A stretch of DNA of 64,000 bases from Actinomadura craniellae (GCF_003289645.1 NZ_QLYX01000003.1:372001-436000), one strand, 5' to 3'. Positions 32,245-57,821 are shown, counted from the stretch's first letter. Translations and numbers: made by a program. The notes: a model not told the origin generated them from the sequence alone.

Positions 32245-33269
32245 TGCGCCCTGCCCTGCCGATGCTCGCCGGCTGCCTGGCGATCCTCACCGCGCTCGGC
32301 GGCTGCTCGGTGATCGAGCCGGCCGACGAGCGGCAAATGACCGTCTACTTCCCGCGGGCCCGGTCGTTCTTCGCCGAGTCCAAGGTCAAGATCATGGGTG
32401 CCGATGTGGGCCGGGTCGACCGGGTGCGGAACATGGGTGACCGGATCCGGGTCGACTTCCACATCGAGGGCGACATCCCGCTGCCCAGGGGGGTGCACGC
32501 CTCGATCGTGCCGCTGAACCTGGTGGGCGAGCGCAACCTCGTCCTGCACCCGCCGTGGAAGCCCGGCACTCCCAAGGAGCCGGGCAACGTCATCCCGATG
32601 GAGCGCACCCACGTCCCGGTCGAGACCGACGACGCGCTGCGCTCGTTCACCAAGGTGGCCGACGCGCTCGACCCGACCAAGGTGAACGCCGCGCTGGGCC
32701 GGACGGCCGACTCGTTCGAGGGCAACGGCCAGGAGTTCAACGCCGCGCTGCAGCAGGCCGCCCAGCTGACCGAGAACATCGCCGGCCAGGACCAGGAACT
32801 GCTGGAGGTCGCCCGGAACCTGCAACGGCTGGCGGGCGTGGTCCGCGGCCGCGAGCAGGTGATCGGCACGATGATCCAGAACTTCGGTGAGGTCAGCCGG
32901 GTGCTGAGCGCCGAGCGGGGCGAGATCCAGGAACTCGTCCGCAACATCCTGGTGCTGGCCCGCAAGGGCGACGCGATCATCAAGAAGTACGACGGGCAGC
33001 TGCCGCAGGACCTGGCGGTGCTGACCCGGGCGGTCCTGGTGCTCCAGGGCAACGTGGGCTCGCTGGGCCAGTTGCTGGAGGCGCTGCCGCACATCGGCGG
33101 GGCGCTGATCAACGGTTACGACGCCCAGAACCGGGCGCTGACCATCCGGTTCGCGACCGACGCGTTCCTGCGCACCTGGCTGAAGAGCATCGAGGGCACC
33201 GACGACATCGGCTGCCCGCTGCCGAAGCCGAACTCCAACTGTCCCTGGGACGACGGAGGTGCCTCGTGA
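32244..33269 (+). CDS. mceD: Mce-family lipoprotein at the D position
   Basis: A 341-residue Mce protein whose N-terminus is a lipoprotein signal, LTALGGCSV, with the lipid cysteine at about residue 21. MCE domain follows at about 30-108 (ARSFFAESKVKIMGADVGRV). The ending GCPLPKPNSNCPW holds two cysteines. In mycobacterial operons the lipoprotein is usually MceE; here both D and E positions have lipoboxes. ATG overlaps the mceC stop. Confidence 0.9.
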   Translation: MRPALPMLAGCLAILTALGGCSVIEPADERQMTVYFPRARSFFAESKVKIMGADVGRVDRVRNMGDRIRVDFHIEGDIPLPRGVHASIVPLNLVGERNLVLHPPWKPGTPKEPGNVIPMERTHVPVETDDALRSFTKVADALDPTKVNAALGRTADSFEGNGQEFNAALQQAAQLTENIAGQDQELLEVARNLQRLAGVVRGREQVIGTMIQNFGEVSRVLSAERGEIQELVRNILVLARKGDAIIKKYDGQLPQDLAVLTRAVLVLQGNVGSLGQLLEALPHIGGALINGYDAQNRALTIRFATDAFLRTWLKSIEGTDDIGCPLPKPNSNCPWDDGGAS

Positions 33270-34342
33270 TCCGCGGATCCGGTCTCGTCCTGCTCGCACT
33301 GGCGGTGGCGGCGGCGTGGGGACTGGCGGGGTGCTCGCTGCCCACCACCGGCGCGCCGCAGGGCGACATGACCGTCACCGCCGTCTTCGCCGACTCCCAG
33401 AACCTGGTCAGCGGGCACAGCGTCCAGCTCGCGGACGTCAAGATCGGCTCGATCACCGGGGTCGAGCTCGACACCAGGACGTACAAGACCAAGGTCACCA
33501 TGTCCCTCATGGACGGCTACCGGCTGCCGGTGGGCACTTCGGCCGAGGTCGCGGTGACCTCCCTGCTGGGCGAGAACTTCGTCCGGCTGAGCCTGCCCCC
33601 GGGCGGCAGCCTGAGCCGGGGCCCGTTCATCGCCGACGGCGGGCAGATCACGCGGACCAGCGTGCAGCCGCAGTTCGAGCAGGTCGTCGGGCAGGCCGGC
33701 CCGCTGCTCAAGGCACTGGCCGGCGACGACGTCGCCACCGTGGTCAACGCCGGGGCGACGGCCCTGGACGGCAACGGCGAGAAGCTCAACGCGATGCTCG
33801 CCAAGTCCAGCGACCTGCTCCGGATCGTCGGCGCCCAGCGGGCCGAACTCGGCGCCTCGGTGGACCGGATGGCCAAGCTGAGCCGGTCGCTGGCCAGGGG
33901 CGAGGACCAGCTGGGCCGGGCCCCCCGCGAGCTGGAGCGCACCACCCGGCTGCTCAACGAGAACAAGGACAAGATCCTCAAAACCGTCGAGAACCTGACC
34001 CGGATGGCGCGACTGCTCAACGACCGGGTGCTGGAGGGCCGGGTCCAGCGGTTCAAGACCCTGGTGAACCAGCTCGACCCGGTGCTGGCCCAGCTCGCCG
34101 GCGACCGGCAGCGGCTGACCCGGCTGATCAACGGCCTGGTGTCGTTCGAGCAGCAACTGCCCAAGGCCACCTACGACGGGCAGCTGCTGCTGTACGCGGT
34201 GCTCAAGTTCGTGACGGCGGACGGAAAGATCATCCCGGCCGGGAGCACCGGCGGTGGGGGCGGTGCCGCGCCCGCCCGGCTGCCCGCCGGGGTGCAGGGC
34301 GCGTTCCCCACCCTCGGCGGTGCGCTGGGAGGTGGCCGGTGA
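33266..34342 (+). CDS. mceE: Mce-family lipoprotein E
   Basis: A 358-residue Mce lipoprotein; lipobox LAGC with Cys at about residue 23, MCE domain at about 35-115 (LVSGHSVQLADVKIGSITGV), helical region with ERTTRLLNENKDKILKTVENL, and a Gly/Ala/Pro-rich tail. GTG 33266 overlaps the mceD stop (GTGA). Confidence 0.92.
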   Translation: MIRGSGLVLLALAVAAAWGLAGCSLPTTGAPQGDMTVTAVFADSQNLVSGHSVQLADVKIGSITGVELDTRTYKTKVTMSLMDGYRLPVGTSAEVAVTSLLGENFVRLSLPPGGSLSRGPFIADGGQITRTSVQPQFEQVVGQAGPLLKALAGDDVATVVNAGATALDGNGEKLNAMLAKSSDLLRIVGAQRAELGASVDRMAKLSRSLARGEDQLGRAPRELERTTRLLNENKDKILKTVENLTRMARLLNDRVLEGRVQRFKTLVNQLDPVLAQLAGDRQRLTRLINGLVSFEQQLPKATYDGQLLLYAVLKFVTADGKIIPAGSTGGGGGAAPARLPAGVQGAFPTLGGALGGGR

Positions 34343-41604: not shown

Positions 41605-43038
41605 ATGCGCCAGTTGACCGCTTTGGACGCAAATTTCCTGAATGCCGAGGGTGGTGGGACCCTCACCCACATCGCCGGGCTCGCGGTGCTCGACCCGACG
41701 ACCCGTCCTGGCAACCGACTGACCTGCGCGGACCTGGCCCGGCTGGTCGCCGAGCGCGCCTCGCTGGCAGCACCGCTACGCCAGCGGCTCGTCTCGGTGC
41801 CGCTGGGACTCGACCGGCCCTACTGGGCCGACGACCCCGACTTCGACCCGGCCTGGCACATCTCCGAGGTGGGCCTGCCCGCCCCCGGGGACGACGCCCA
41901 GCTCGCCGAGACCGTGGCCCTACTGCACGAGCGCGAACTCGACCGCTCCCGGCCGCTGTGGGAGGCCGTCATCATCCAGGGCCTGCTGGGCGGCCGGGTC
42001 GCCGTCTACGCCAAGGTCCACCACGCCGCCACCGACGGGGTGCTCGCCGCCGACATCCTGGCCGCGCTGCTGGACCTGTCGCCCGAACCCCGCCCGGTGC
42101 CCGAGGCCGGCGCCGAGCCCGTCCCGGCCCCCAGCCCCGCCGCCATGGTGAGCGCCGGCCTCACTCGCTCGGTGTTCCATCCCGTCGCGGCCGCGCGGTC
42201 ACTGGCCCAGGCCGCCCCCTACCTCGACGAGGTGCCGCTGCTCGGGCAGCTTCCCGGCGCGCGCCGGGTGGCCCGGGCCCTCCAGGAGGCGCTCGGCCGC
42301 GACCCGCTGCCGCCCGGCCCCCGGCTGGTCGCGCCGCCGACCCCGTTCAACGGGCCTGTCGGCCGCCGCCGCTCGGTCGCCTTCGGCTCGCTCCCGCTGG
42401 CGGAGGTCAAGCGCGCCCGGGGGGCCCTCGGCGGCAGCGTCAACGACGTGGTGATGGCGCTGTGCGCCGCGGCGCTGCGGCGCTGGCTGGACAAGCGCGG
42501 CCGGCTGCCCGACGTCCCGCTGGTCGCCGCGGTGCCCGCCTCGCTGCGGCGGCGCTCCGCCGCGGCGGACGGCGCGAACCAGGTCTCGGTCATGCTCGCC
42601 CAGCTGCCCACCCACCTGGACGACCCGGCCGAGCGGTTCACCGCCATGCGGCAGGGGATGGCCGCGGCCAAGCGCCGGTTCGCCGTCACCGGCGGGGGCT
42701 GGCTGGACGCGCTCAGCCAGCTCGCGCCCGTCCCGCTGTCGGGCCCGCTGGTCCGGCTGGCGATGCGCACCGGGTCCGTCCGGCCGATCAACCTGATGGT
42801 GTCGAACGTGCCGGGCCCGCAGTTCCCGCTGTACCTGTGCGGGGCCCGGGTGCTCGCCTACCACCCGGTCTCGGTCGTCAGCGACCTGACCGGCGGGATC
42901 AACATCACCGTCTTCTCCTACGACGGCCGGCTCGACATCGGCATCGTGGCCTGCCGCGACATGGTGCCCGACCCCGGCGAGCTGATCGACCACCTCGACG
43001 ACGCCCTCGACGAGCTGAAGGGACTGCTAGAGCCCTAG
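41605..43038 (+). CDS. Wax ester synthase / diacylglycerol acyltransferase (WS/DGAT)
   Basis: A 477-residue bifunctional acyltransferase making wax esters and triacylglycerol from acyl-CoA at the membrane/lipid body surface. The catalytic motif HHAATDG is at residues 139-145, the GSVNDVVMALCAAALR region near 275, and the C-terminal VSNVPGP motif near 395. Length is normal. ATG 41605 begins MRQLTALDANFL as in relatives. It may work with the PlsC-like enzyme upstream; a link to Mce-imported fatty acids is inference. Confidence 0.92.
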   Translation: MRQLTALDANFLNAEGGGTLTHIAGLAVLDPTTRPGNRLTCADLARLVAERASLAAPLRQRLVSVPLGLDRPYWADDPDFDPAWHISEVGLPAPGDDAQLAETVALLHERELDRSRPLWEAVIIQGLLGGRVAVYAKVHHAATDGVLAADILAALLDLSPEPRPVPEAGAEPVPAPSPAAMVSAGLTRSVFHPVAAARSLAQAAPYLDEVPLLGQLPGARRVARALQEALGRDPLPPGPRLVAPPTPFNGPVGRRRSVAFGSLPLAEVKRARGALGGSVNDVVMALCAAALRRWLDKRGRLPDVPLVAAVPASLRRRSAAADGANQVSVMLAQLPTHLDDPAERFTAMRQGMAAAKRRFAVTGGGWLDALSQLAPVPLSGPLVRLAMRTGSVRPINLMVSNVPGPQFPLYLCGARVLAYHPVSVVSDLTGGINITVFSYDGRLDIGIVACRDMVPDPGELIDHLDDALDELKGLLEP

Positions 43039-45530: not shown

Positions 45531-45548
45531 ACCATCAGGTCAGGGGCC
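45522..45548. terminator. Hairpin overlapping both convergent stop codons
   Basis: Arms GGCCCCTGA (45522-45530) and TCAGGGGCC (45540-45548) are perfect complements around a 9-nt loop. The plus-strand stop TGA is the end of the left arm and the minus-strand stop lies in the loop. Likely a compact bidirectional terminator. Confidence 0.65.
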
Positions 45549-46260
45549 GGGCCGCGGCGGCGAAGCCCGGGTCGAGGTGGGCGGTGTCGTTGTAGCGGCG
45601 GACGATCCACTGCGGCCCCACGACGACCAGGTGGGAGATCGAGCCGTTGTCGCAGCCCAGGAACGCGAACGGCCGGGACCGCGCGGCCAGCGCCAGCGCC
45701 TGCGCGATCACCCCGCCGTGGGTGAAGACCGCCAGCCGCCGGCCCGGGTTGGCGGCGGCCAGCCCGTCGACGGCTGCGCGCACCCGGGCGGCGAACTTCT
45801 CCGCGGGCTCGGCGCCCGGGATCACGTCCCACCGCTCCTCGGCCCACAGCCGCTGCGCCACCGGGCCGTTCTCGGCGACCATCCGGCGGAACAGCCCGCC
45901 CTCCCACGCACCGAGGTGGACCTCGCGCAGCCCGGCCGTCACCACCGGCTCCAACCCCAGCCGGGCGGCGAGCGGCGCGGCGGTCTGCACGGTACGGCGC
46001 AGCGTGGTGACGTGGATCGCGTCCACGTGCTCGCCGCCCAGCCGGAGCGCCACCCGCTCGGCCTGCTCGCGCCCGCCAGGCGCCAGTTCCGGATCGCCGT
46101 GCCCGTCGACCAGCGGGAACGGCCGGTCAGGCCGGGCCGGCTCCGACTCGCCGTGCCGGATCAGCAGCAGTTCGGTGGCACCCGCGGGCGGCTGGAAGCG
46201 GGCCTGCCGGTACTCGTCGGGTGAACCAGGAGAACCTGAAGAACCTGGAGAAGTGGTCAC
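45535..46260 (-). CDS. Histidine phosphatase (phosphoglycerate mutase superfamily)
   Basis: A 241-residue phosphatase. The catalytic His is in LLLIRHGESEP near residue 35, with the second His in FTHGGVIAQ near 180 and a Glu in HLGAWEGG. The N-terminal 25 residues are Ser/Gly/Pro-rich. It belongs to the acid-phosphatase/PhoE-like branch; substrate unknown. GTG 46260. It lies 28 nt past the stop of the cvnD-type gene on the same strand, so it could share that transcript. Confidence 0.85.
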   Translation of the reverse strand: MTTSPGSSGSPGSPDEYRQARFQPPAGATELLLIRHGESEPARPDRPFPLVDGHGDPELAPGGREQAERVALRLGGEHVDAIHVTTLRRTVQTAAPLAARLGLEPVVTAGLREVHLGAWEGGLFRRMVAENGPVAQRLWAEERWDVIPGAEPAEKFAARVRAAVDGLAAANPGRRLAVFTHGGVIAQALALAARSRPFAFLGCDNGSISHLVVVGPQWIVRRYNDTAHLDPGFAAAARPLT

Positions 46261-46288: not shown

Positions 46289-46891
46289 TTACGTGGGCGA
46301 GGGCTCCTTCGGCCGGGTGCCCCGCATGCCCATGGCGTGCCGGACGAGCTTGATCAGGACGTCCTTGCACGACTCCCGGTCCCGGGCGTCGCACAGCATC
46401 ACCGGCACGTTCGGCGGCAGGTTCAGCGCGAGCTTCACCTCGTCCAGCTCGTACTGGCGGGCCCCCTCGAAGCAGTTGACCGCCACGATGAACGGGGTGC
46501 CGCGCCGCTCGAAGTAGTCCACCGAGGGGAAGCAGTCGGCCAGCCGGCGGGTGTCGGCGAGGACCACCGCGCCCAGCGCGCCGAGCGCCACCTCGTCCCA
46601 GACGAACCAGAACCGCTCCTGACCGGGCGTGCCGAACAGGTAGAGGACGAACTCCTCACCCATCGTGATGCGGCCGAAGTCCATCGCCACGGTGGTGGTG
46701 TTCTTGGCCTCCACCCCGGAGATGTCGTCGACGCCCACGCCCTGGTCGGTGAGGACCTCTTCGGTGCGCAGCGGTTTGGTCTCCGAGACGGTGCCGACCA
46801 TGGTGGTCTTGCCGACCCCGAAGCCGCCGGCGATCAGAATCTTGATCGCCGTGGGCATCCGGCGGCCTCGTCTAGAGCGCCCGGAGTCCAT
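46289..46891 (-). CDS. cvnD: Conservon GTPase-like protein CvnD
   Basis: A 200-residue Ras-like ATP/GTP-binding protein of the CvnD (MglA-like) group. Walker A GGFGVGKTT is at about 22-30, the switch regions ITMGEEFVLYLFGTPGQERF near 82 and VAVNCFEGARQYELDE near 140. In conservons it acts as the small G-protein under the CvnA sensor kinase. ATG 46891 overlaps cvnC by 20 nt; an ATG at 46858 with GAGG upstream is an alternative. Confidence 0.9.
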   Translation of the reverse strand: MDSGRSRRGRRMPTAIKILIAGGFGVGKTTMVGTVSETKPLRTEEVLTDQGVGVDDISGVEAKNTTTVAMDFGRITMGEEFVLYLFGTPGQERFWFVWDEVALGALGAVVLADTRRLADCFPSVDYFERRGTPFIVAVNCFEGARQYELDEVKLALNLPPNVPVMLCDARDRESCKDVLIKLVRHAMGMRGTRPKEPSPT

Positions 46892-47258
46892 CGATCACCG
46901 CCTCGTACATCCTGATGTCGGCCATGTCGGCCTCTGAATCGGGTTCCTGGACGGCCACGTAACCCTTGTCGAGCAGGTCGCCGAGCAGGACCCGGACGGT
47001 GCCTGCCGGCAGGTCGAGATGCCCGGTCAGCTCGGCCACGGACATGATGTCCTGGCAGAGCCGCAGGATGGCCAGATGCTCGGGGCCGAGCCCCGGCTCG
47101 GAGGTCGGGGCGGGCTGGGTGGCCTCGACGAGCGTGATGAGGTCGAACTTGCCGCGGATGGGCTGGATGCGACCGCTCGTCATCACGTACGGGCGGACCA
47201 TCGGCCCGGCGTGCTCGTCGAGCCAGCGTTCCTCGTTGCGATCCTCGGGTGAGTTCAT
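46872..47258 (-). CDS. cvnC: Conservon protein CvnC (DUF742)
   Basis: A 128-residue DUF742 protein, with MVRPYVMTSGRIQP near 20 and LDLPAGTVRVLLGDLLDKGYV near 80, the winged-helix-like core typical of CvnC. It binds the CvnB/CvnD partners in the known conservon model. The start lies 4 nt after the cvnB stop. Confidence 0.92.
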   Translation of the reverse strand: MNSPEDRNEERWLDEHAGPMVRPYVMTSGRIQPIRGKFDLITLVEATQPAPTSEPGLGPEHLAILRLCQDIMSVAELTGHLDLPAGTVRVLLGDLLDKGYVAVQEPDSEADMADIRMYEAVIDGLRAL

Positions 47259-47262
47259 GACC

Positions 47263-47685
47263 TCAGCTCGTGCCGTTGGTGGACGCCGCCGTCCGGGACG
47301 GCGAGGTCAGGTGATGACCGACGCTGGTCACGAGCATGGCCATCTCGTAGGCGATCAGACCGACGTCGGCGTCCTCGGTGGCCAGCACCGCCAGGCAGGC
47401 GCCCTTGCCCGCCACGGTCACCAGGAGGAACGCCGACTGCATCTCGATGATGGTCTGCCGGACCGTGCCACCGCCGAACCGCTCGCCGGCCCCGCGGGCC
47501 AGGCTCTGGATCCCGGCCGCCACGGCCGACAGGTGCTCGGCGTCGTCCTGGCCGAAGTCGCGGGACGCCGCCATGAGCAGCCCGTCGGCGGAGAGCACGA
47601 TCGCGTGCTGGGTCTCGGCGACCCGCTTGACCAGGTCGTCCAGCAACCAGGCCAGATCAACGGATGAACCTGTCTTCTGCACCAC
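47263..47685 (-). CDS. cvnB: Conservon protein CvnB (roadblock/LC7)
   Basis: A 140-residue roadblock/LC7 protein. LAWLLDDLVKRVAETQHAIVLSADGL near the start and IQSLARGAGERFGGG follow the family. GTG 47685 has AAAGGA 8 nt upstream, which I prefer to a 15-codon longer frame from 47730. CvnB is the likely GTPase regulator for CvnD. Confidence 0.9.
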   Translation of the reverse strand: MVQKTGSSVDLAWLLDDLVKRVAETQHAIVLSADGLLMAASRDFGQDDAEHLSAVAAGIQSLARGAGERFGGGTVRQTIIEMQSAFLLVTVAGKGACLAVLATEDADVGLIAYEMAMLVTSVGHHLTSPSRTAASTNGTS

Positions 47686-47784
47686 TCGTTGTCCTTTTCT
47701 ACTTCCCGCCGCCGCGGTCCCGTGGCTCATCGGGCGCCGGGTCGGTCGTTGTCGACTCTGGGTGGGCGCGGAACCCGGGTCAGG

Positions 47785-50130
47785 TCACTCGTCCGGCTGT
47801 TCTGCCGGACCCTTCCCGAGCTTCTTCGCTGCCGCCGACCTGCCGCGGCGAGTGCCCGACTGGTAGGAGCCGAACATCTGGCGGATCTCCTCCGGCGACC
47901 GGCTGCCGGGCTCCTCCTCCTCCAGGCTCTCGGTCGTGGTCGGCGTGTCGGTGCGCAGCGCCGGGGCCAGGCTCGCCTGGGGGACCCGGAGCGGCAGCCC
48001 CGACGGGGTGGTCTCGGTCTCGGCCGGTTCGGCCGGCGCGTCGGTACCGCTGGTGATCTCTTCGATGGCGGGCTCCGGGGGGGTACGGGGCTCGGGTACG
48101 GGCCGGGGCACGGCCGAGACGTTCTTCTCGACCTGGACCATCGGCCTTTCCGCACGGGCGGTGCGGAGATCATCGATCTTCACGGGCTCGCCGTTCCGCC
48201 GGGCGCCGACGGCCGCGGGCACCGGGGTCTCGCCGCTGGCCGCGCTGTCGCCGCCTTCGATGTCCTCCACCAGCTCGCGCGGGACGAGCACGACGGCCGT
48301 GGTACCGCCGTAGGCGGAACGCTTGAGGGAGACCTGCAGTTCGTACCGCTGGGCCAGCCGGCCGACCACGTACAGGCCGAGCTGCACGGAGCTCGACATG
48401 TTGAACTCGGGCGGGTCCATGATCCGGCTGTTGATCTCGGCGAGCCGCTCGTCGGTCATGCCGAGCCCGCGGTCCTCGATCTCCACCGCGTACCCGCTGG
48501 CGACCATGTGACCGCTCACCTGGACCAGGGTGTAGGGCGGGGAGAAGGAGACCGCGTTCTCGATCAGCTCGGCGAGCAGGTGGGTGATGTCACCGACGGC
48601 GCGGCCGGTCAGCGAGACCGGGCCCATCGGCGACACGGTGACCCGGGTGTAGTCCTCGACCTCGCCGACCGCGGCGCGGACGACGTCGACCATCGTGACC
48701 GACTTCTTCCAGCCACGGGCCGGGGTGGAGCCCGACAGGACGATGAGGTTCTCGGCGTTGCGCCGCATGCGGGTGGCGAGGTGGTCCAGGCGGAACAGGT
48801 CCTCCAGTTCCTGCTCCTCGACCTCGCGGCGTTCCATCGCGTCCAGCAGGGTCAGTTGCCGGTGCACCAGGGTCTGGCTGCGGCGGGCCAGGCTGAGCAG
48901 GATGTCGCGGATGCCGCGGCGCAGTTCGGCCTGCTCGACGGCGGTCCGGATCGCGGTCTCCTGGACCACGTTGAACGCCTGGCCCACCTGGCCGATCTCG
49001 TCGTCACCGAACTGCAGCGGCGGGGCCTCCTTGGCGACGTCCACGGTCTCGCCGTGACCGAGCCGGTCGACCACGCGGGGCAGCCGGTTGTCGGCCAGGT
49101 CGTGCGCGGCGTCCCGCAGCTTCTCCAGTTGGCGGACCAGGGCCCGGGCCGTGGTGATGGAGACGATGACGGAGGCGATGACCGCGAGCAGTCCCAGCCC
49201 ACCGGCCAGCACCAGCCGGACGATGACGCCCGCGGCGACCGGCTTGGCCGCGTCGACGAGCTTGTCACCGGCGCCCAGCGTCGTCTTCGTGATCTCGTCC
49301 AGCGCCGGCCGGGTGACGTTCTGCCACTGCTCGCCGGTGAGCGGCGGTCGCTGGCTGAGCCGGCCGTGCTGGATCACGAGGTCCTCGGTGGCCCGCAGCC
49401 GGTTGAGCGCCGGGCTGGCGTTCAACCGCGGGGCCAGTGCCGGGTCGACGTCGGCGAGCTTGGTCTGGGCGTCGCCCATGAAGAGCCGCCGGGCGCCGAC
49501 CATCTGGACGAACTCGTTGTGCTCGGCGGCGGTCACCCGGCCGGCGGAGATCATGCCCGCCAGCAGGGCGTCCTCCTCCGAGAGGAGTTCGGTGGCCCGG
49601 GTCATCTCGATCAGGGTCCGGGTGTCCTGGGCGAGTTTCTTGTCGTCCAGGGTCGCCATGTAGGTGTACATCTGGAACAGCGTGCTGATCGTGTCCGAGT
49701 ACGCGGTGGCCGCCCGGGTACGGTCCAACACCCGGCCGTCGACGTCCTGGCGGGTGGCGGCGAGGCCGTTCAGCCGTCGGGTCATCTCCGTGAGGTGCCG
49801 CTTCAGCGTGTCGCTGGCCGCCAGGTCGACGTTGCGGGAGCCGATCCCCTCGATGAACTTCGCCCGGGCCCGGTCGGTGCGGGCCCGCTGCGTGTCCAGG
49901 GCTGCACGCTGCCCGCCGCTGCCGAGGGCGACCAGGGTGAGCCGGCGCTCCTGCTGCAGTTCGGCGAGCAGCGGTTCGCTGGGCTGCACCACGCTCGAGT
50001 CGAGTGTGGCGACCCAGAGCATGTTCAGGCCCTCGCGCACGGTCACCCAGGCGGCGAACATCCACAGCGCGGTGAGTGACAGGATCAGCGCGGTGACCTT
50101 GGTCCGCAGACGGGAGTTGCGGAAGCGCAT
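47785..50130 (-). CDS. cvnA: Conservon sensor histidine kinase CvnA (NIT-HAMP type)
   Basis: A 781-residue membrane sensor. Membrane helix at about 12-32, extracellular nitrate/nitrite-sensing-like (NIT) domain to about 290, second helix at about 298-322, HAMP region to about 390, dimerisation region LFRLDHLATRMRRNAENLIVL near 450 and an ATPase domain with ELIENAVSFSPP (N box, near 520) and DRGLGM. A Pro-rich, acidic tail of about 140 residues follows. The signal sensed is unknown. It leads cvnA-B-C-D and starts 211 nt past the class II cyclase, on the same strand. Confidence 0.92.
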   Translation of the reverse strand: MRFRNSRLRTKVTALILSLTALWMFAAWVTVREGLNMLWVATLDSSVVQPSEPLLAELQQERRLTLVALGSGGQRAALDTQRARTDRARAKFIEGIGSRNVDLAASDTLKRHLTEMTRRLNGLAATRQDVDGRVLDRTRAATAYSDTISTLFQMYTYMATLDDKKLAQDTRTLIEMTRATELLSEEDALLAGMISAGRVTAAEHNEFVQMVGARRLFMGDAQTKLADVDPALAPRLNASPALNRLRATEDLVIQHGRLSQRPPLTGEQWQNVTRPALDEITKTTLGAGDKLVDAAKPVAAGVIVRLVLAGGLGLLAVIASVIVSITTARALVRQLEKLRDAAHDLADNRLPRVVDRLGHGETVDVAKEAPPLQFGDDEIGQVGQAFNVVQETAIRTAVEQAELRRGIRDILLSLARRSQTLVHRQLTLLDAMERREVEEQELEDLFRLDHLATRMRRNAENLIVLSGSTPARGWKKSVTMVDVVRAAVGEVEDYTRVTVSPMGPVSLTGRAVGDITHLLAELIENAVSFSPPYTLVQVSGHMVASGYAVEIEDRGLGMTDERLAEINSRIMDPPEFNMSSSVQLGLYVVGRLAQRYELQVSLKRSAYGGTTAVVLVPRELVEDIEGGDSAASGETPVPAAVGARRNGEPVKIDDLRTARAERPMVQVEKNVSAVPRPVPEPRTPPEPAIEEITSGTDAPAEPAETETTPSGLPLRVPQASLAPALRTDTPTTTESLEEEEPGSRSPEEIRQMFGSYQSGTRRGRSAAAKKLGKGPAEQPDE

Positions 50131-50339: not shown

Positions 50340-50355
50340 TTTCATCTAGATGAAA
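50340..50355. promoter_or_regulatory. Perfect 16-bp palindrome at the class II cyclase stop
   Basis: TTTCATCTAGATGAAA is fully symmetric and includes the cyclase stop codon. It has no loop, so a protein-binding site is more likely than a hairpin. It lies 209 nt upstream of cvnA and could be an operator for the conservon. Confidence 0.35.
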
Positions 50356-51889
50356 CGTGCGCGTTGTCCAGCGCGAGTCCGCGTGCGGCGAGTACGGCCG
50401 ATCGTACGATCGCCGTGGGCAGATAGAGATCCTTGTCATGCCACAGGGCGGGCTCGTCGGGACCCGGCGCGGTGGCCGGCAGCCGGTCCAGACCCCGGGC
50501 CACGGCGGCGCGCGCCGCCTCGGCACTCTCGCCGTCGGCGGGCCGGGAGAGGAGCAGGATCTGCATCGCGTACGCCGTCTCCTCGGCGGTGCCGGACCAG
50601 TGGCCCCACGAGCCGTCGGGACGCTGGGAGTCCAGCACCCACCGCCGGGCCCGGTGCACCGCGGGGCCGCCCGTCGCGCCGCCGAAGCGTTCCAGTGCGA
50701 GCGCACAACAGGCCGTCGCGTAGTAGGGCGAGGCGTGCCAGCGATCCCGCCAGCTTCCGTCGGGTTCCTGGCGGCCGGCCAGCCAGGCCCCGACCCGGGC
50801 GATCGTGGCGGCGTAGCGCGGAGCCTCGGCGGGCACGGCGGCGGCGTACTGCCCGAACGCCTCCAGCACGTGCGCGTTGGTGCTGACGGAGACCCCGTCC
50901 TCGCCCGGCCAGGTGGCGAAGTGGGCGCCGGCCTCGTACGCCCACAGCGGGTCGGGACGACGCGGGGCGCCGAGCAGGGCCAGCGCGTACAACGCCCCGG
51001 ACGTGGTGTCGGCGTCCGCCGGCAGGCCCGCGGCGGCCGGGGCGCCCCGCTCCCCGACGGCGTCCGCCAGTTCGCGCACCAGCGTGTCCGGCACGGTGAC
51101 CGGGATGCCGGCCCGGGCCAGCCAGCCCAGTACCCAGCCGCGTTCGAAGACGGTGATGGGCAGGCCGCACGGCACCGGTCCCCCGTGCGGGCGGGCGGCC
51201 TCCTCGAGGTAACGGCGGGCCGGATGGTCGGGCTCGGGCTCCTGGTCGCCGAGCCAGGCGGCGGTGGCGGCGGGGGAGGCACCGATCGTGCCGGTGCTCT
51301 GCGGGCGGAGCGCCGGCAGGCCGCGCGCGGCGTCGCCGGCGAGTTCCAGGGCGTGGATCAGCTTCTCCGGTATCTCGCCGCCGCCGGTGAGCACGGACCG
51401 GATGACCGGCAGCAGCGCTCCGTCCAGTTTCGGGGGGGACGGCAGCGGCTCGGCCAGCCGGCGGTTGATCAGTTCGATCAGGGCGGGTGCGAGGTGCTCG
51501 ATCGCCGGCATGTCGGGGAGCGCCGGGCCGCCGCCGGAGAGCCACCGGCGCAGCACCGCCACACCGCGCTCGGCGGACCGTGCCAACTCAGGGTCGTGCG
51601 GCCGGGCGGCGAGCAGCGCCTCGGTCGCGCTGAGCGTGGGGACGAGCGCGTAACCGGGGTCGGGCGCCCCCCAGCCGCCGTCCGGTCGCTGGGTGGCGAC
51701 CAGGTAGTCCAGCCGCTGCCGGTGCCCGGCCAGCCAGGGCGTCAGGCTGATCACCCGGCCGGTCTCGTAGACCGAGGGCGAGACCCTGCCCCAGGGCTCG
51801 GTCAGCAGGCCGTCCACCAGTTCCTGGGCGGCCGCGGCGATCTCCGCCACCGGTCCGGTGCGGGCCGGCGGCGGATGGCCGGCGCTCAC
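50342..51889 (-). CDS. Class II diterpene cyclase (protonation-type)
   Basis: A 515-residue class II terpene cyclase expected to convert geranylgeranyl diphosphate to a bicyclic diphosphate (labdane, halimane or clerodane type). Protonation-site motif D292-A-D294-T-T replaces the textbook DxDD; DxDTT is, as I recall, found in several actinomycete class II cyclases. QW-like motifs QRPDGGWGAP (67-76) and SQRPDGSWGHW (421-431), RWHASPYYAT near 383, and LWHDKDLYLPTAIVRS near 482 fit the family. No class I DDxxD is present. GTG 51889 overlaps the P450 stop by 4 nt (GTGA), so the two are translationally coupled. Confidence 0.88.
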   Translation of the reverse strand: MSAGHPPPARTGPVAEIAAAAQELVDGLLTEPWGRVSPSVYETGRVISLTPWLAGHRQRLDYLVATQRPDGGWGAPDPGYALVPTLSATEALLAARPHDPELARSAERGVAVLRRWLSGGGPALPDMPAIEHLAPALIELINRRLAEPLPSPPKLDGALLPVIRSVLTGGGEIPEKLIHALELAGDAARGLPALRPQSTGTIGASPAATAAWLGDQEPEPDHPARRYLEEAARPHGGPVPCGLPITVFERGWVLGWLARAGIPVTVPDTLVRELADAVGERGAPAAAGLPADADTTSGALYALALLGAPRRPDPLWAYEAGAHFATWPGEDGVSVSTNAHVLEAFGQYAAAVPAEAPRYAATIARVGAWLAGRQEPDGSWRDRWHASPYYATACCALALERFGGATGGPAVHRARRWVLDSQRPDGSWGHWSGTAEETAYAMQILLLSRPADGESAEAARAAVARGLDRLPATAPGPDEPALWHDKDLYLPTAIVRSAVLAARGLALDNAHVSSR

Positions 51890-53256
51890 GCCGGGTGCCC
51901 GGTGCGGATCACCGGCTGGAGCGTCATCCCTATCTTGTCGCGGGGGCGTACGGTCGCCGCGATCCGGCCCTTGACGGGCCTCGGGTCGGTCAGCTTCGGC
52001 CGGAAGCGGCTGAGGATGGCGGCCACGATGAGCTGCGCCTCGATGTTGAAGACGTGCATGCCGAGGCACTGGTGCTGCCCCCCGCCGAACGGGAAGTAGG
52101 CGTAGCGGTGCCGGTTCCGGGCGTTCTCGGGGCGGAACCGCTCGGGGTCGAAGGTGAGCGGGTCCGGCCAGATGGATTCCAGGTGGTGGGTGATGAGCGG
52201 GCTGAACAGCATGGTCGCGCCGGCCTCGATCTTCACTCCGTCGATCACGTCGGAGCCGACGGCCGTGCGGGGGAACAGCCAGCCCACCGGGAACAGCCGC
52301 AGCAGTTCCTGGATGACCATCCGGGTGTATTCCAGGTCCGGCAGGTGCTGGGGGCCGACCGGATCGGACCCGACCACGCGGTCGATCTCCTCGTAGAGGG
52401 TCTCGGCCACCTCGGGATTCGCTTCCAGGGCGGGCCACAACCAGGTCAGCGCCACGGAGGTGGTCTCGGTGCCCGCTCCGAGCATGCTGACCACGTCGTC
52501 GCGGATCTGCCGGTCGGTGAGGGGCTCGCCGTCCGGTCCCCTGACCCGGCACAGCGTGGCGATGACGTCGTCACCGCCGTCGTCGAGCCGCCGGACCTCC
52601 CGGATCACCGGGTACACCACGGAGTCGACCGTCTTGACGGAGCGTAGGAAGGCCCGGTCGCCGGGCAGCGGGACCGCGTTGGGGACGAAGGGCAGCAGCA
52701 GGCGGAAGGCGATGGAGTGCACGATCGTCTCGAACGCGGGAACCAGCAGGGCATTGCCCTGCTGGGAGATCCGGTCACCGAAGAAGATCTTGATGACGGT
52801 CTGGTTGACGACGCTGTTCATCTCCTGGGAGGCCTCGACCGTCCGGCCGGACCGGCCGCGCCAGGCCATCTGATCGACCGCCTGGTTGACGGTTTCGGCC
52901 ATCCGCTCGGTCAGGGATGTGACGTTCCGCGAGGTGAAGACGGGCTGCAGGTTGCGGCGGCTGTGCTCCCAGGTCGGGCCGTCACCCAGGATGCCGTCGC
53001 CCAGCAGGCGTTCGAGAGCGTTCCAGAACATGCCTTTACGCCGGTAGTTCGCGGAATTACCGCGCAACACGTGCTGGACATGATCGGGATCGGTCACCAG
53101 ATACGGTCGGAACGTTCCCGCATTCAGCCGAATGATCTCCCCGGAGGCGTCGGTGCCGACCTTTTCGAAAGCGGCCAGCGGGTCACGGAGGAATCCGGGT
53201 GCGAGTCGGCGGAGCGGAACTGTTCGAGCTGGTCTCGCTCTCGGATCGGTTGACAT
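51886..53256 (-). CDS. Cytochrome P450, probable terpenoid oxidase
   Basis: A 456-residue P450 probably hydroxylating the diterpene product. Oxygen-binding helix GAGTETT (260-266), ELLR (ExxR, 317-320), and heme motif FPFGGGQHQCLG with Cys397. No membrane anchor, so soluble, and redox partners must come from elsewhere. It has an intact ExxR, so it is not the ExxR-lacking CYP157 type that often follows conservons. ATG 53256 diverges from the class I synthase across a 342-nt region. It is the first gene of the two-gene minus unit. Confidence 0.92.
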   Translation of the reverse strand: MSTDPRARPARTVPLRRLAPGFLRDPLAAFEKVGTDASGEIIRLNAGTFRPYLVTDPDHVQHVLRGNSANYRRKGMFWNALERLLGDGILGDGPTWEHSRRNLQPVFTSRNVTSLTERMAETVNQAVDQMAWRGRSGRTVEASQEMNSVVNQTVIKIFFGDRISQQGNALLVPAFETIVHSIAFRLLLPFVPNAVPLPGDRAFLRSVKTVDSVVYPVIREVRRLDDGGDDVIATLCRVRGPDGEPLTDRQIRDDVVSMLGAGTETTSVALTWLWPALEANPEVAETLYEEIDRVVGSDPVGPQHLPDLEYTRMVIQELLRLFPVGWLFPRTAVGSDVIDGVKIEAGATMLFSPLITHHLESIWPDPLTFDPERFRPENARNRHRYAYFPFGGGQHQCLGMHVFNIEAQLIVAAILSRFRPKLTDPRPVKGRIAATVRPRDKIGMTLQPVIRTGHPA

Positions 53257-53598
53257 TAAGAGCCGCCCTCACTTCGCGGTGTGGCATTATCCTGCTTGGC
53301 AGGCGAAGATCGTGGGTTCGCTACGGATAGCGATCATCGACTGTCGCCTTGTGACCTCGCTCGACAGGTGAGTTGCATTTGTCATCAATGAACAACGGGA
53401 GTATCACACGCCCCTCTTTGGGGGACAAGATCGCAAAGGTCATAGTTTGGGGCCTATGGGAGTGATGTACCTATCACTCCGGTTTGATCTAGCATGGTGC
53501 GTCCCTGATCAGCTATGTTGATCTTGATCGGGTGATGCCCCGGCTTCGCCCCGGCAGGTCTTCGTCGAGGCGAAGCAGCAGCTCACGAGGGGTTTTCG
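53257..53598. other. Divergent promoter region of the diterpenoid cluster
   Basis: AT-rich compared with the genes. It holds the 22-bp palindrome at 53459-53480, a short hairpin CCCC-TCTTT-GGGG near 53411-53423, and GATCTTGATC repeats near 53519-53529. No gene. Confidence 0.6.
53459..53480. promoter_or_regulatory. 22-bp palindrome GGAGTGAT-N6-ATCACTCC
   Basis: Perfect 8-bp arms (53459-53466 and 53473-53480) around GTACCT. It sits in the divergent region between the P450 and the class I terpene synthase, where it could control both arms of the cluster. No regulator gene is in the cluster itself. Confidence 0.6.
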
Positions 53599-54630
53599 GT
53601 GGTTCAGTCAGACCGGCGTTCGTACTTCGACATCCATAACGCCGTTGTGGGCAGCGTGCTCCCGGATGCTCATCCGCTGAAGGGGATCCCGGTCGAGGAT
53701 CTCGACGCGGTGCTCGACGGGGCGGTGGCGACGACACGCTCCGTGAGCGAGCTGTTGCGGCCCTATTCGGTTCTTTATCCCGACGGCCGGCGCACCGAAA
53801 GCCGGCTCGCCTTCTGCTGCCTGTCGGCGGCGGCCACCTTTCCCGGCGCGGCCATCGACGTGCTGACCGATATGGCGGCGCTGACCATGCTGCTGTTCGG
53901 CGTGGACGACGTCACAGACGAAATCGTCGAGAGCTGTACCGACGAACAGTTCGAGTCTTTCACCACGGACCTGTACGCCGTCCTGGCCGGTGGCGCGGCG
54001 GGCGAGTGGGACCCGGCGGGGCCCGCGGGCCAGGTGCTGGCCGCCTGGAGCCTGTGGAGCGAGCGCTTCCACGCCCGGCCCATCGCGGGGGCGCACGTCG
54101 CCGAGGTGATCGAGCAGTTGAAGGTGGCGCAGCGGGCGTTGACCCGGGAGCGGCGCTGGACCGCCGGGACCGCACCCCTTCCCTCCTACGCCGAATACCT
54201 CGACAACGGTCTCGTCACGTGTTTCTACCCGCTGTGGTGGGTGGCGGCCCTGGGCGTCTGCGGGCCGGAGCCGGCCGTGACCGAACACGCACGGCAGATC
54301 GAATCGGCGACCCGGGTAGGGGCCTCGTGCATTCGGCTGGCCAACGACGTCCGCTCGTTCGAGCGGGAGAAGCGCGAAGGCAAGCACAATGCCATCTCCG
54401 TGCTCCAGAGCGCCGGCGCGAGCGAGGACGAGGCGATTCGACGGGTGCTCGACCATATTGCCGAGCTCACGGTCGAGTTCGAGGCCGGGCTATCAAGCTT
54501 CCCCGCCGAGTTGGCCGCTATCGCCGATTGGCAGCGACGGAGTGTGCGTTTCCATCACCACTGGTTCATGGCGCGTGACACCCACGGTTTCAGTGTGACG
54601 GAACTGGCGGCGCAGGCCGCTTCGGCGTAA
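53599..54630 (+). CDS. Class I terpene synthase (ionisation-type)
   Basis: A 343-residue class I terpene synthase. Metal motif DDVTD (D103, D104, D107) and NSE motif N249-D250-x2-S253-x3-E257 are complete, and RLANDVRSFERE and HHHWF near the end fit. By context it takes the class II product and removes the diphosphate to a diterpene. GTG 53599 has GAGGGG upstream. The next gene, GGPP synthase, starts 158 nt later on the same strand. Confidence 0.9.
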   Translation: MVQSDRRSYFDIHNAVVGSVLPDAHPLKGIPVEDLDAVLDGAVATTRSVSELLRPYSVLYPDGRRTESRLAFCCLSAAATFPGAAIDVLTDMAALTMLLFGVDDVTDEIVESCTDEQFESFTTDLYAVLAGGAAGEWDPAGPAGQVLAAWSLWSERFHARPIAGAHVAEVIEQLKVAQRALTRERRWTAGTAPLPSYAEYLDNGLVTCFYPLWWVAALGVCGPEPAVTEHARQIESATRVGASCIRLANDVRSFEREKREGKHNAISVLQSAGASEDEAIRRVLDHIAELTVEFEAGLSSFPAELAAIADWQRRSVRFHHHWFMARDTHGFSVTELAAQAASA

Positions 54631-54788
54631 CGCACTGTGACAATCGGGCTGGTCAGCGCCTCCGATCATGGAAAGATTACGTTAACTTCGCGCATTTTTC
54701 GACTGTGGTGTTCTCATTCATCGACTTATCTGCAATTCTAGGTGAAAGATCACCATCATTCCGTGACCTGGGTAGGGAATGACCAGTC

Positions 54789-55850
54789 GTGACGCTCGAT
54801 GTTTCTGGCCTGTGTAAACCCGAAATTGATGTGACCGAAACCCTGGGGCAATGCCGGGAGTTGGTCGAACCGGTGCTGCGTGAGGCGGTCGCCGGGCTGC
54901 ATCCCTGGCCGGGGCGGATGGCGGCCTTCACGTTCGGCTGGATCGAGGCTGACGGCACCCCCCGGGAGGGCTCCGGCGGCAAGGGGATGCGCCCGGCACT
55001 GGCCGTGCTGTCGGCCCGGGCCGTGGGAGCCCCGCCGGAGGCCGCGGTGGCCGGGGCGGTCGCGGTGGAACTCGTGCACGCCTTCTCCCTGGTACACGAC
55101 GACATCATGGACGGCGACGAGCTCCGCCGGCATCGCGAGACCGCCTGGAAGGCCTACGGCGTCGGCCCCGCGGTGCTGGCCGGGGACGCCCTGCTGGCGC
55201 TGGCCATGGGGACCCTCGCCCAGGCGTCGGGCGGGGACGCGGTGGCCGCGCTCGCCCGGCTGTCGGACACGCTCGTCGAGCTCGTCAACGGCCAGGCCGA
55301 CGACGTCGCCTTCGAGAACCGGCCGTGGAGCGGCCCGGAGGCGGTCACCGTCGAGGAGTACCAGGAGATGGCCGCGGGCAAGACCGGTTCCCTGCTCGGC
55401 TGCGCCGCGGCGGTCGGCGCGCTGCTCGGTGGCGGCCCGGCCGCCCTGGCCGACGAGATGGCCCGGATGGGACGCCTGCTCGGCATCGCCTTCCAGGCCG
55501 TCGACGACCTGCTGGGCATCTGGGGCGACCCGGCGACCACCGGCAAGCCGGTTTTCAACGACCTGCGGCAGCACAAGAAGACCCTGCCGGTCGTCGCCGC
55601 GCTGCGGTCGGACACCGAACCGGGCCGGCAACTGGCGGACCTGCTCGAAACCGGGCGCCCGCTCGACGAGGACCTGCTCCGGCTCGCCGCCGAACTGGTC
55701 GATCGGGCCGGCGGCCGGGACTTCGCCCAGGAGCAGGCCGAGACCCACCTGGAAGAGGCCCTGAAGATCATTGAGTCCGCGGCGCTCGACACCGCCGCGG
55801 CCGGGGAACTGGCCGCGCTGTCCCGGTACATCGTCCGGCGCAGCCACTGA
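54789..55850 (+). CDS. Geranylgeranyl diphosphate synthase
   Basis: A 353-residue trans-prenyl diphosphate synthase. First Asp-rich motif VHDDIMDGD (D104, D105, D108) and second motif DDLLGIWGD (from D239). The KGMRP and AAGKTG motifs match. Product length cannot be fixed from the motif alone but C20 fits the class II plus class I pair. GTG 54789. It supplies GGPP to the cluster. No mevalonate genes are near, so precursor comes from the MEP pathway (inference). Confidence 0.92.
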   Translation: MTLDVSGLCKPEIDVTETLGQCRELVEPVLREAVAGLHPWPGRMAAFTFGWIEADGTPREGSGGKGMRPALAVLSARAVGAPPEAAVAGAVAVELVHAFSLVHDDIMDGDELRRHRETAWKAYGVGPAVLAGDALLALAMGTLAQASGGDAVAALARLSDTLVELVNGQADDVAFENRPWSGPEAVTVEEYQEMAAGKTGSLLGCAAAVGALLGGGPAALADEMARMGRLLGIAFQAVDDLLGIWGDPATTGKPVFNDLRQHKKTLPVVAALRSDTEPGRQLADLLETGRPLDEDLLRLAAELVDRAGGRDFAQEQAETHLEEALKIIESAALDTAAAGELAALSRYIVRRSH

Positions 55851-55946: not shown

Positions 55947-57821
55947 GTGGGTCAGCTCAAGCGGCGTGACCGGATGCGGTACTGGTTCGACAACACCATG
56001 TCGCGGGGCACCTCGGCGCTGATCGGCTGGCTCGGCCTGGCCTCCGGGGTGCTCATCCTGGCGGTGGCCTCGCTGGCCATGGTGATCGCGCCGCGCGACG
56101 CGGGCGACAACGGGCACTGGCCCGGAGTGCTGTGGCGCAGCCTGCTGCGCACGCTCGACCCGGGCACCATGGGCGACGACGAGGGCTCGGCGCCGTTCCT
56201 GGCCCTGATGCTGGCGGCCACCGTCGGCGGCATCTTCATCGTCAGCGCACTGATCGGCGTGCTGACGACCGGCCTCGAAGGAAAGATCACCGAGCTGCGC
56301 AAGGGCCGGTCGCGGATCGTCGAGCAGCGCCACACCGTGGTGCTGGGCTGGTCCGACCAGGTGTTCACGGTGATCACCGAACTGGTCGAGGCCAACCAGA
56401 GCCGGCGCCGCTCCTGCATCGCGATCCTCGCCGACCACGACAAGGTCGACATGGAGGACGCGATCCGCGCCCGGGTCGGCGACACCGGCCGCACCCGGGT
56501 GGTGTGCCGGCGCGGCAACCCGCTCAAGGTCGCCGACCTGGAACTGGTCAGCCCCGGCACCGCCCGGTCGATCGTGGTGCTGTCACCGCCGGTCGAGGAC
56601 CCCGACATCCACGTCATCAAGACGCTGCTGTCGCTGGGCGCCCGGACCTGGGACGAGCCCCGGCCGCACGTGGTCGCGGCGGTGCACGACTCGGCCAACC
56701 TGCCCGCGGCCCGGCTGGCCGGCGGCCCGTCCGCACACGTGATCGACGCCGACGACCTGGCGATCCGGCTGATCGTGCAGTCCCACCGGCAGTCGGGGCT
56801 GTCCACGGTCTGCACCGACCTGCTGAACTTCGAGGGCCACGAGTTCTACATGCGTCCCGAGCCGGCGCTGACCGGGGTGACCTACGCCGCCGCGCTGGAC
56901 GCCTACGACCTGGGCATCCCCGTCGGGTTGCGGCGCGCGGACGGGGAGGTCCTGGTCAACCCGCCGATGGACACGGCGATCCGCGCCGACGACGAGGTCA
57001 TCGTGCTGGCCGAGGACGACCTGCTGATCCGGCTGGCCACCGGCCGGCCGCCGGTGCACGAGGAGGCGATCGCCACCGCCGCCCCGCACCCGCAGGAGCC
57101 CGCGCGGACGCTGCTGATCGGCTGGAACCACCGCGCCCCGAAGATCATCGGCATGCTCGACGAGTTCGTCCGGCCCGGCTCGTACCTGGAGATCGCCGCG
57201 CTGCGCGCCGACCCCAGCGGTGAACTGCCCCGGCTGAAGAACCTGACGACGGGGTTCACGCACTGCGACGACACCGACCGCACCGACCTGGAGAAGCTCG
57301 ACGTCGGCTCCTACCAGCACATCATCGTGCTGTCGGACGCCGGCTTCGACCCGGCCGTCTGCGACGCCCGCACCCTGGTGACCCTGCTGCACCTGCGCGA
57401 CATGGAGGAGACCCTGGGCGACCCGTACTCCATCGTCAGCGAGATCAACGACGACGCCAACCGCGAGGTCGCGCAGGTCACCAAGGCCGACGACTTCGTG
57501 GTCAGCGACAAGCTGATCAGCCTGACCCTGACCCAGCTCAGCGAGAACCGGCACCTGTACGACGTCTTCATCGACCTGCTGGAACCGCTGGGCTCCGAGC
57601 TCTACCTCAAGCCCGCGGCCGACTACCTGGTCCCCGGCGTCCCCGCCAACTTCGCCACCCTCATCGAGTCGGCCCGCCGGCGCGGCGAGACGGCCCTCGG
57701 CTACCGGCTGGGCGCCCGCTTCCACGAGCCCCCGAAGTACGGCATCGTCCTCAACCCCGACAAGTCCGCCCCGCTCACCCTCACCGAAGACGACAAGGTC
57801 ATCGTCCTCGCCGAGGACTGA
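55947..57821 (+). CDS. CASTOR/POLLUX-like ion channel with NAD-binding domains
   Basis: A 624-residue membrane protein with two N-terminal helices (about 26-49 and 87-110) and then two RCK/TrkA-N-like domains (HTVVLGWSDQVFTVITEL near 128 and RTLLIGWNHRAPKIIGML near 388), as in bacterial homologues of CASTOR/POLLUX. Ion conducted is unknown; K+ or Ca2+ by homology. GTG 55947 has GGGGGAGG upstream. It follows GGPPS by 96 nt on the same strand but has no visible link to it. Confidence 0.8.
   Translation: MGQLKRRDRMRYWFDNTMSRGTSALIGWLGLASGVLILAVASLAMVIAPRDAGDNGHWPGVLWRSLLRTLDPGTMGDDEGSAPFLALMLAATVGGIFIVSALIGVLTTGLEGKITELRKGRSRIVEQRHTVVLGWSDQVFTVITELVEANQSRRRSCIAILADHDKVDMEDAIRARVGDTGRTRVVCRRGNPLKVADLELVSPGTARSIVVLSPPVEDPDIHVIKTLLSLGARTWDEPRPHVVAAVHDSANLPAARLAGGPSAHVIDADDLAIRLIVQSHRQSGLSTVCTDLLNFEGHEFYMRPEPALTGVTYAAALDAYDLGIPVGLRRADGEVLVNPPMDTAIRADDEVIVLAEDDLLIRLATGRPPVHEEAIATAAPHPQEPARTLLIGWNHRAPKIIGMLDEFVRPGSYLEIAALRADPSGELPRLKNLTTGFTHCDDTDRTDLEKLDVGSYQHIIVLSDAGFDPAVCDARTLVTLLHLRDMEETLGDPYSIVSEINDDANREVAQVTKADDFVVSDKLISLTLTQLSENRHLYDVFIDLLEPLGSELYLKPAADYLVPGVPANFATLIESARRRGETALGYRLGARFHEPPKYGIVLNPDKSAPLTLTEDDKVIVLAED

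Follow-up and report, generated by a model that had tools for sequence, protein, structure and literature searches.

Compact clusters that unite genes for a GGPP synthase, a class II cyclase, a class I synthase and a P450 are already known, as are conservons and some pairings of a conservon with a biosynthetic cluster. Cyslabdan (cld), raimonol (rmn) and biformene (lrd) each have such a compact four-gene set, and the organization is highly conserved in the n-CPP/cyslabdan group. For Salinispora, PMC9814573, citing Xu 2014, describes a terp1/sat cluster in which SaDTS/Sat1646, SaCPS and CYP1051A1 lead to isopimara-8,15-dien-19-ol. Sat1646 itself makes isopimara-8,15-diene, and its cluster is nearly identical to Salinispora terp1 (PMC9814573). 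Among class II cyclases, the position of PtmT2 D502 and Tpn2 G485 decides between labdane and clerodane products, and roles have been assigned to the Mg-binding DxxxxE motif and the activating histidine (PMC9814783). Conservons are now also referred to as actinobacterial G protein systems; one of them, Cvn8, represses an adjacent lanthipeptide cluster (PMC13343842), and the described indole prenyltransferase clusters always have conservons beside them (PMC3617294). A P450 can also belong to a conservon as CvnE, which is encoded after cvnD and is paired with a CvnA without a sensory domain (PMC13343842, PMC8510531). Our own literature search, largely of openly accessible papers, returned no relevant paper linking conservons with diterpenes.

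Here we describe a locus in a 64,000-nucleotide stretch of the Actinomadura craniellae genome (GCF_003289645.1, NZ_QLYX01000003.1:372001-436000), referred to below as the window. The locus is an eight-gene unit in which a conservon, cvnA-D, is joined to a labdane-related diterpene pathway. We think it probable that this labdane-type pathway sits on an ancestral chassis whose class I synthase has been replaced, that it is under conservon control, and that it leads to a skeleton other than isopimaradiene.

Gene content and proposed reaction order

Pfam and PDB searches were concordant on all four enzyme families and, together with the motifs, they bear out the four genes (class II cyclase, P450, class I synthase and GGPP synthase) that an earlier note on this DNA had placed at 50342-55850 (Table 1). 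The DADTT motif, the intact P450 heme motif, DDVTD and the NSE motif were all located as it had claimed. Of the two Asp-rich motifs it ascribed to the GGPP synthase, the first is there as DDIMD, while the second is present as the variant DDLLG. The class II open reading frame as listed (736 aa) runs too far 5', into the P450 gene, and its start is most likely the GTG at 51850, 35 bases past the P450 stop. A repeat search of the divergent intergenic region returned one imperfect direct repeat in addition to the short inverted repeat. The class I and P450 genes have a G+C content of 0.68, compared with 0.71-0.76 in neighboring genes, which is compatible with acquisition but is no proof of it.

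Table 1. Features of the diterpene locus, with positions counted from the first nucleotide of the window.
Feature	Position	Strand	Evidence or remark
Class II diterpene cyclase, DxDTT variant	50342-51850	-	phmmer best PtmT2 5bp8, E 2.8e-115
DADTT motif, class II cyclase	51002-51016	-	DxDD variant, central Asp retained
WHDKDLY motif, class II cyclase	50423-50443	-	Asp = PtmT2 D502 / Tpn2 G485; Tyr = Tpn2 Y489
DMPAIE (DxxxxE, Mg-binding), class II cyclase	51497-51514		
TNAH (activating His), class II cyclase	50870-50881		
Cytochrome P450	51886-53256	-	Pfam p450, E 4.5e-70; nearest PDB entry 3dbg
Heme motif FGGGQHQCLG, P450	52060-52089		
Divergent intergenic region between arms, putative promoter region	53257-53598		low G+C, one short inverted repeat
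Class I terpene synthase	53599-54630	+	Terpene_syn_C_2, E 5.7e-20
DDVTD metal-binding motif, class I synthase	53905-53919	+	
NDVRSFERE (NSE) motif, class I synthase	54343-54369	+	
Polyprenyl (GGPP) synthase	54789-55850	+	Pfam polyprenyl_synt, E 1.3e-57
CvnA, sensor-kinase-like with NIT sensor domain, HAMP, HATPase	47785-50130	-	Pfam NIT, E 3.7e-39; HAMP; HATPase_c
CvnB, roadblock/LC7 protein	47263-47730	-	Pfam Robl_LC7, E 1.9e-26
CvnC, DUF742 protein	46872-47258	-	Pfam DUF742, E 2.8e-36
CvnD, small Ras/MglA-like GTPase	46289-46891	-	Pfam ATP_bind_1, E 4e-31

Directly to the left of the class II gene and on the same strand lies an intact four-gene conservon (50130-46289, Pfam), which encodes a kinase-like protein, a roadblock protein, a DUF742 protein and a small GTPase in this order. 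Neighboring conservon genes are separated by short gaps or overlaps, and a gap of 211 bp separates the class II gene from cvnA. CvnD matches the TIGR00231 small_GTP model with an E value of 2.1e-05, under the model cut-off. The extent first proposed for the cluster is right for the enzymes, but its boundary is too narrow, as the conserved locus includes the conservon (46289-50130). The accompanying statement that the gene set lacks a regulator is wrong, as a complete conservon adjoins the cluster and is conserved with it.

We rejected an extension of the locus to the right past the GGPP synthase gene, where Castor/Pollux-like channel, hydroxyacid dehydrogenase and luciferase-like genes are unmatched in related loci, and an extension to the left into a histidine phosphatase gene (45535-46260) that is unmatched in any related locus. 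The Castor/Pollux-type ion channel gene (55947-57821) directly follows the GGPP synthase gene and is not conserved with the cluster. Elsewhere in the window there are Mce4_CUP1/MlaD-domain genes of the lipid or sterol uptake type (30149-34342), which are likely part of an mce operon, and a gene for a wax ester synthase/diacylglycerol acyltransferase (41605-43038) near the diterpene locus.

The predicted structure of the class II cyclase (AlphaFold, pLDDT 74.5) has a beta-gamma didomain fold like that of PtmT2 and Tpn2; the best Foldseek match was 5bp8 (TM 0.84/0.82, 45% identity), and 7xkx gave 0.80/0.82. In all 55 aligned class II rows DxD[T/S][T/S] replaces DxDD, and three further loci are alike. 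As in the whole clade, the window enzyme keeps the central Asp of DxDD and has Thr in place of the last one. Conservation in the alignment extends to the activating His, to DxxxxE, and to two residues at the diphosphate side, a Trp and an Arg. The Asp equivalent to PtmT2 D502 occurs in 53 of the 55 rows (WHDKDLY in 51 and one-residue variants in two), the other two being gapped there. Because the central Asp, the His, DxxxxE, the diphosphate-side residues and the D502-equivalent Asp are kept, we predict that the central Asp protonates GGPP and that the product is of the copalyl (labdane) type. The DxDTT motif might instead reflect an altered class II chemistry, for example a substrate of different chain length or a cyclase with little or no activity, since the last Asp of DxDD is missing from every row and drimenol synthases, which belong to a different superfamily, are known to have DxDTT (PMC9128629). 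However, the central Asp, the activating His, DxxxxE and the D502-equivalent Asp are kept across a family-wide clade, and a GGPP synthase-like gene was found in 37 of the compared loci, so that an altered chemistry appears highly improbable. The cues to the stereochemistry of the predicted copalyl-type product differ: the nearest characterized enzyme of known structure makes the ent form, whereas the chassis resembles a normal-CPP cluster.

The class I synthase combines DDxxD and NSE motifs in a modeled alpha-helical fold, and D103, D104 and D107 of DDVTD are invariant in a 23-row class I alignment. The best fold matches of its AlphaFold model (pLDDT 88.7) are tolypothrichol synthase 9kgb and Sat1646 7e4n, with Z scores of about 31. 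By sequence, the nearest solved class I enzyme is also tolypothrichol synthase 9kgb (E 2.9e-21, 25-26% identical), and the identity to Sat1646 and LrdC is ~20%. It is not an enzyme of the Sat1646 type: it matches 7e4n at only E 8.6e-09, compared with 1.5e-89 between Sat1646 and the class I gene of a related locus (L189). We conclude that the window enzyme is a distant relative of tolypothrichol synthase and that it replaces the Sat1646-type class I synthase of most related loci. No paper on tolypothrichol was found in our literature search.

Besides its heme motif, the P450 carries ELLR and an I-helix GAGTETT. The GGPP synthase scored 304.5 bits against the IdsB GGPP synthase model (cut-off 475). 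The same protein scored 412.8 bits against the NCBIfam family 2 encapsulin cargo polyprenyl transferase model (cut-off 450), which is higher than its IdsB score. HMG-CoA reductase is absent from the window genome while dxs, of the MEP pathway, is present, which explains the earlier observation that the gene set lacks mevalonate genes.

From the observed gene content, motifs, folds, conserved linkage and pattern of class I replacement we infer a reaction order, a product, an acquisition route and a regulatory link. The GGPP synthase would convert MEP-derived precursors to GGPP, which the DxDTT class II cyclase would protonate via its central Asp to give a copalyl-type diphosphate; the class I synthase would ionize this intermediate to a diterpene olefin or alcohol, and the P450 is predicted to oxidize that diterpene. 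The labdane-related reading given in the earlier note is backed by the families, motifs, folds and conserved gene order, with reaction order and product as predicted steps. It is also conceivable that the two cyclases do not act in series, in which case the class I enzyme would take GGPP directly and the locus would make two products. There are many similarly folded bacterial class I enzymes that do use FPP or GGPP directly, and the class I and class II genes lie on opposite arms. Yet one class I gene accompanies the class II gene in all but three of 60 class II loci, the nearest cyanobacterial sequence relatives of the class I enzyme are also encoded beside a class II gene, and Sat1646 and LrdC, both of which use CPP, are among the closest folds. 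Because of the constant pairing and the cyanobacterial neighborhoods, action in series is supported, and we regard separate use of GGPP as very unlikely.

Class I types among related loci

We compared the window with 343 genomes of one actinobacterial family, whose name, Streptosporangiaceae, was deduced from the membership of Nonomuraea. The loci fetched were 24 Nonomuraea class I loci, 30 class II loci from many genera, and seven obtained via a Sat-type class I query, six of them with a class II gene. A class I or class II gene was what qualified a locus for inclusion, and the counts below describe such loci and not conservons at large. A relative of the class II cyclase is encoded in 209 of the 343 genomes and in 30 of 68 genera. 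In a phylum-wide sample, the class II alignment gave only weak partial matches outside the family; a locus from another family (L239) came from the Sat-type class I query.

The window-type class I gene is much less widespread, occurring in 25 of the 343 genomes, namely that of the window and 24 of one other genus, Nonomuraea, and a search repeated with an alignment over the order led to the same genus. Beyond the window this type was seen only in Nonomuraea and, distantly, in cyanobacteria. A contig scan with the single class I protein gave no match, whereas the alignment-based scan did. We also noted a Brasilonema locus with class II, P450 and class I genes in a row (L068, 4735-9014) and a Scytonema tolypothrichoides locus with class II and class I genes (L069, 6274-9062).

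The usual order of the related loci is P450, a class I gene of ~300 codons, class II and cvnA-B-C-D. The typical extra gene between P450 and class II encodes a Sat1646-type class I synthase, as in L189 with the match to Sat1646 given above. The window has no Sat-type gene at this place: its P450 gene directly adjoins the class II gene, and the different class I gene stands in the opposite arm. Across the 60 class II loci, 34 have a Sat-type and 23 a window-type class I gene; three have neither and none has both. No Sat-type class I gene was detected in the window genome with a query that matches 17 relatives of the family. Two Nonomuraea loci (L195 and L208, genomes G159 and G158) encode a diverged Sat1646-like class I enzyme with 38% identity to the L189 copy; the gene is antisense between cvnA and class II and stands in for the window-type gene, which makes this a third class I arrangement, and these loci are nested among window-type ones.

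Phylogenetic trees group the window with Sat-type loci of other genera, for the class II cyclase (SH-aLRT 83), for CvnA (100, in a nine-row clade) and for the GGPP synthase (support 99, eight rows); the P450 tree does not place the window. Forcing the window together with Nonomuraea was rejected at p-AU 0.026 for class II and 0.036 for the GGPP synthase, values that are moderately below 0.05 and come from quick trees with long branches, for a grouping picked after the trees had been seen. We propose that the chassis, consisting of the conservon, class II, P450 and often the GGPP synthase, is ancestral in the family, normally with a Sat1646-like class I gene between P450 and class II, and that in the window lineage the Sat-type gene would have been lost and a tolypothrichol-synthase-like class I gene placed in the opposite arm. 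Because the window class II, CvnA and GGPP synthase group with Sat-type loci and the position of the class I gene differs, it is simplest to assume that the window lineage and Nonomuraea each exchanged their class I gene independently. An alternative to a second transfer is old shared ancestry of the window and Nonomuraea class I genes followed by losses, and the window class I enzyme is indeed only 40-50% identical to the Nonomuraea copies.

As the class I synthase is different, the skeleton is predicted to differ from isopimaradiene. One could object that this is an ordinary compact labdane cluster of the terp1/sat, cld, rmn or lrd kind with a known isopimarane or biformene-type product, to which the type of class I enzyme is irrelevant. 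The same four enzyme classes are present, related loci match the description of Salinispora terp1/sat in gene content, and different class I enzymes can give the same olefin, with both Sat1646 and Stt4548 making isopimara-8,15-diene according to the literature. But the class I enzyme is about 20% identical to Sat1646 and LrdC, with its nearest relative being tolypothrichol synthase at 25-26%, and its gene lies in another place and arm than the Sat-type gene. A known product of this kind is, in our judgment, unlikely.

Linkage of the conservon with the diterpene pathway

A conservon adjoins the class I gene in all 24 Nonomuraea genomes, 23 of which have the class II and P450 genes at the same place as well. 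Conservon genes stand beside the class II gene in every one of the 60 fetched class II loci, with CvnD detected in 59 and the exception being a contig that ends inside cvnA. One of the 60, L239, comes from a different family within the class and shares the gene order. The linkage lasts at about 50-65% protein identity through many genera and this one other family, despite class I swaps and rearrangements. The association of the diterpene enzymes is not due to chance, because dozens of genomes have this set of genes grouped in one place. In three loci (L190, L192 and L194, in genomes G291, G260 and G253) a class II gene and intact cvnB-C-D are present, but cvnA is reduced to remnants and the P450 gene is missing, and in L192 and L194 no class I gene was detected either; these three look like decaying versions of the unit. 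Nonomuraea dietziae (G171), the one exception among the 24, has its pathway split, with one locus with conservon, class I and P450 and no class II (L032), and another with a second conservon, class II, GGPP synthase and a P450 fragment (L140).

Because the linkage is conserved, and because of the precedents of the Cvn8 lanthipeptide cluster and the indole prenyltransferase clusters, we consider it most likely that the conservon regulates expression of the genes next to it upon a signal that CvnA perceives through its NIT domain, with the caveat that a conserved neighbor need not regulate its neighbor. The conservon might otherwise be an old neighbor that controls something else, the diterpene genes being regulated independently; the 211-bp gap would suit such an arrangement, and the window genome has nine CvnD copies. 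Against this, the linkage has been kept over the identities and lineages given above, and the CvnA tree unites the CvnAs of the window and Nonomuraea diterpene loci in a clade (100/98) that is separate from the remaining conservons in those genomes. Independent regulation therefore seems rather doubtful to us. We also considered the P450 as a CvnE-type accessory of the conservon and rejected it, because the P450 gene is on the upstream side, past class II, and because CvnA does carry a sensory domain, NIT.

Across the family, the locus might even form a signaling system complete in itself, in which the conservon would sense the diterpenoid, its own or a neighbor's, and control its synthesis, so that a class I swap would change the signal and lineage-specific diterpene signals would arise on one conserved G-protein-like chassis; we offer this as a distinctly improbable extension. 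Little is known of what conservons sense and act upon, and a conservon tied to one four-enzyme pathway in most genomes of the family makes a small, clean test system. Naturally occurring exchanges of the class I gene on one conserved chassis offer ready material for finding new diterpene skeletons, and they let one ask how a regulator stays with a pathway while the product changes. The DxDTT class II clade, in turn, provides a variant of the acid motif.

Comparison with described systems

The earlier note could not match the locus to a described pathway. This holds for the class I enzyme and for the DxDTT motif, which differ, but not for the chassis, which resembles Salinispora terp1/sat and the compact four-gene labdane clusters. 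Terp1/sat and the window both have class II, class I and P450 in one compact cluster, and terp1/sat has a Sat1646-type class I enzyme, the type shared by most relatives of the window locus. Compared with terp1/sat by its description, the window has a class I gene of another subfamily in another place, its own adjoining GGPP synthase gene, and a conservon. The cld, rmn and lrd clusters share the same four enzyme classes in a compact set, and LrdC of the biformene cluster is about 21% identical to the window class I enzyme in a structure alignment.

Among single enzymes, PtmT2, the ent-copalyl diphosphate synthase of Streptomyces platensis (5bp8), is 45-51% identical to the window class II cyclase, the value varying with the alignment used. 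The two have in common the fold, the Mg motif, the activating His and the D502 position, whereas PtmT2 has DSDD where the window enzyme has DxDTT. Tolypothrichol synthase 9kgb and the Scytonema tolypothrichoides open reading frame in L069 are identical in sequence over the region that could be aligned. The gene for this cyanobacterial enzyme adjoins a class II gene, as does the window-type class I gene, but there is no conservon in the fetched neighborhood. Finally, Cvn1-13 of S. coelicolor (PMC13343842, PMC8510531) consist of the same four proteins in the same order, the CvnA of the window having a NIT-HAMP-HATPase architecture, and what distinguishes the conservon of the window is that it is tied to a diterpene pathway.
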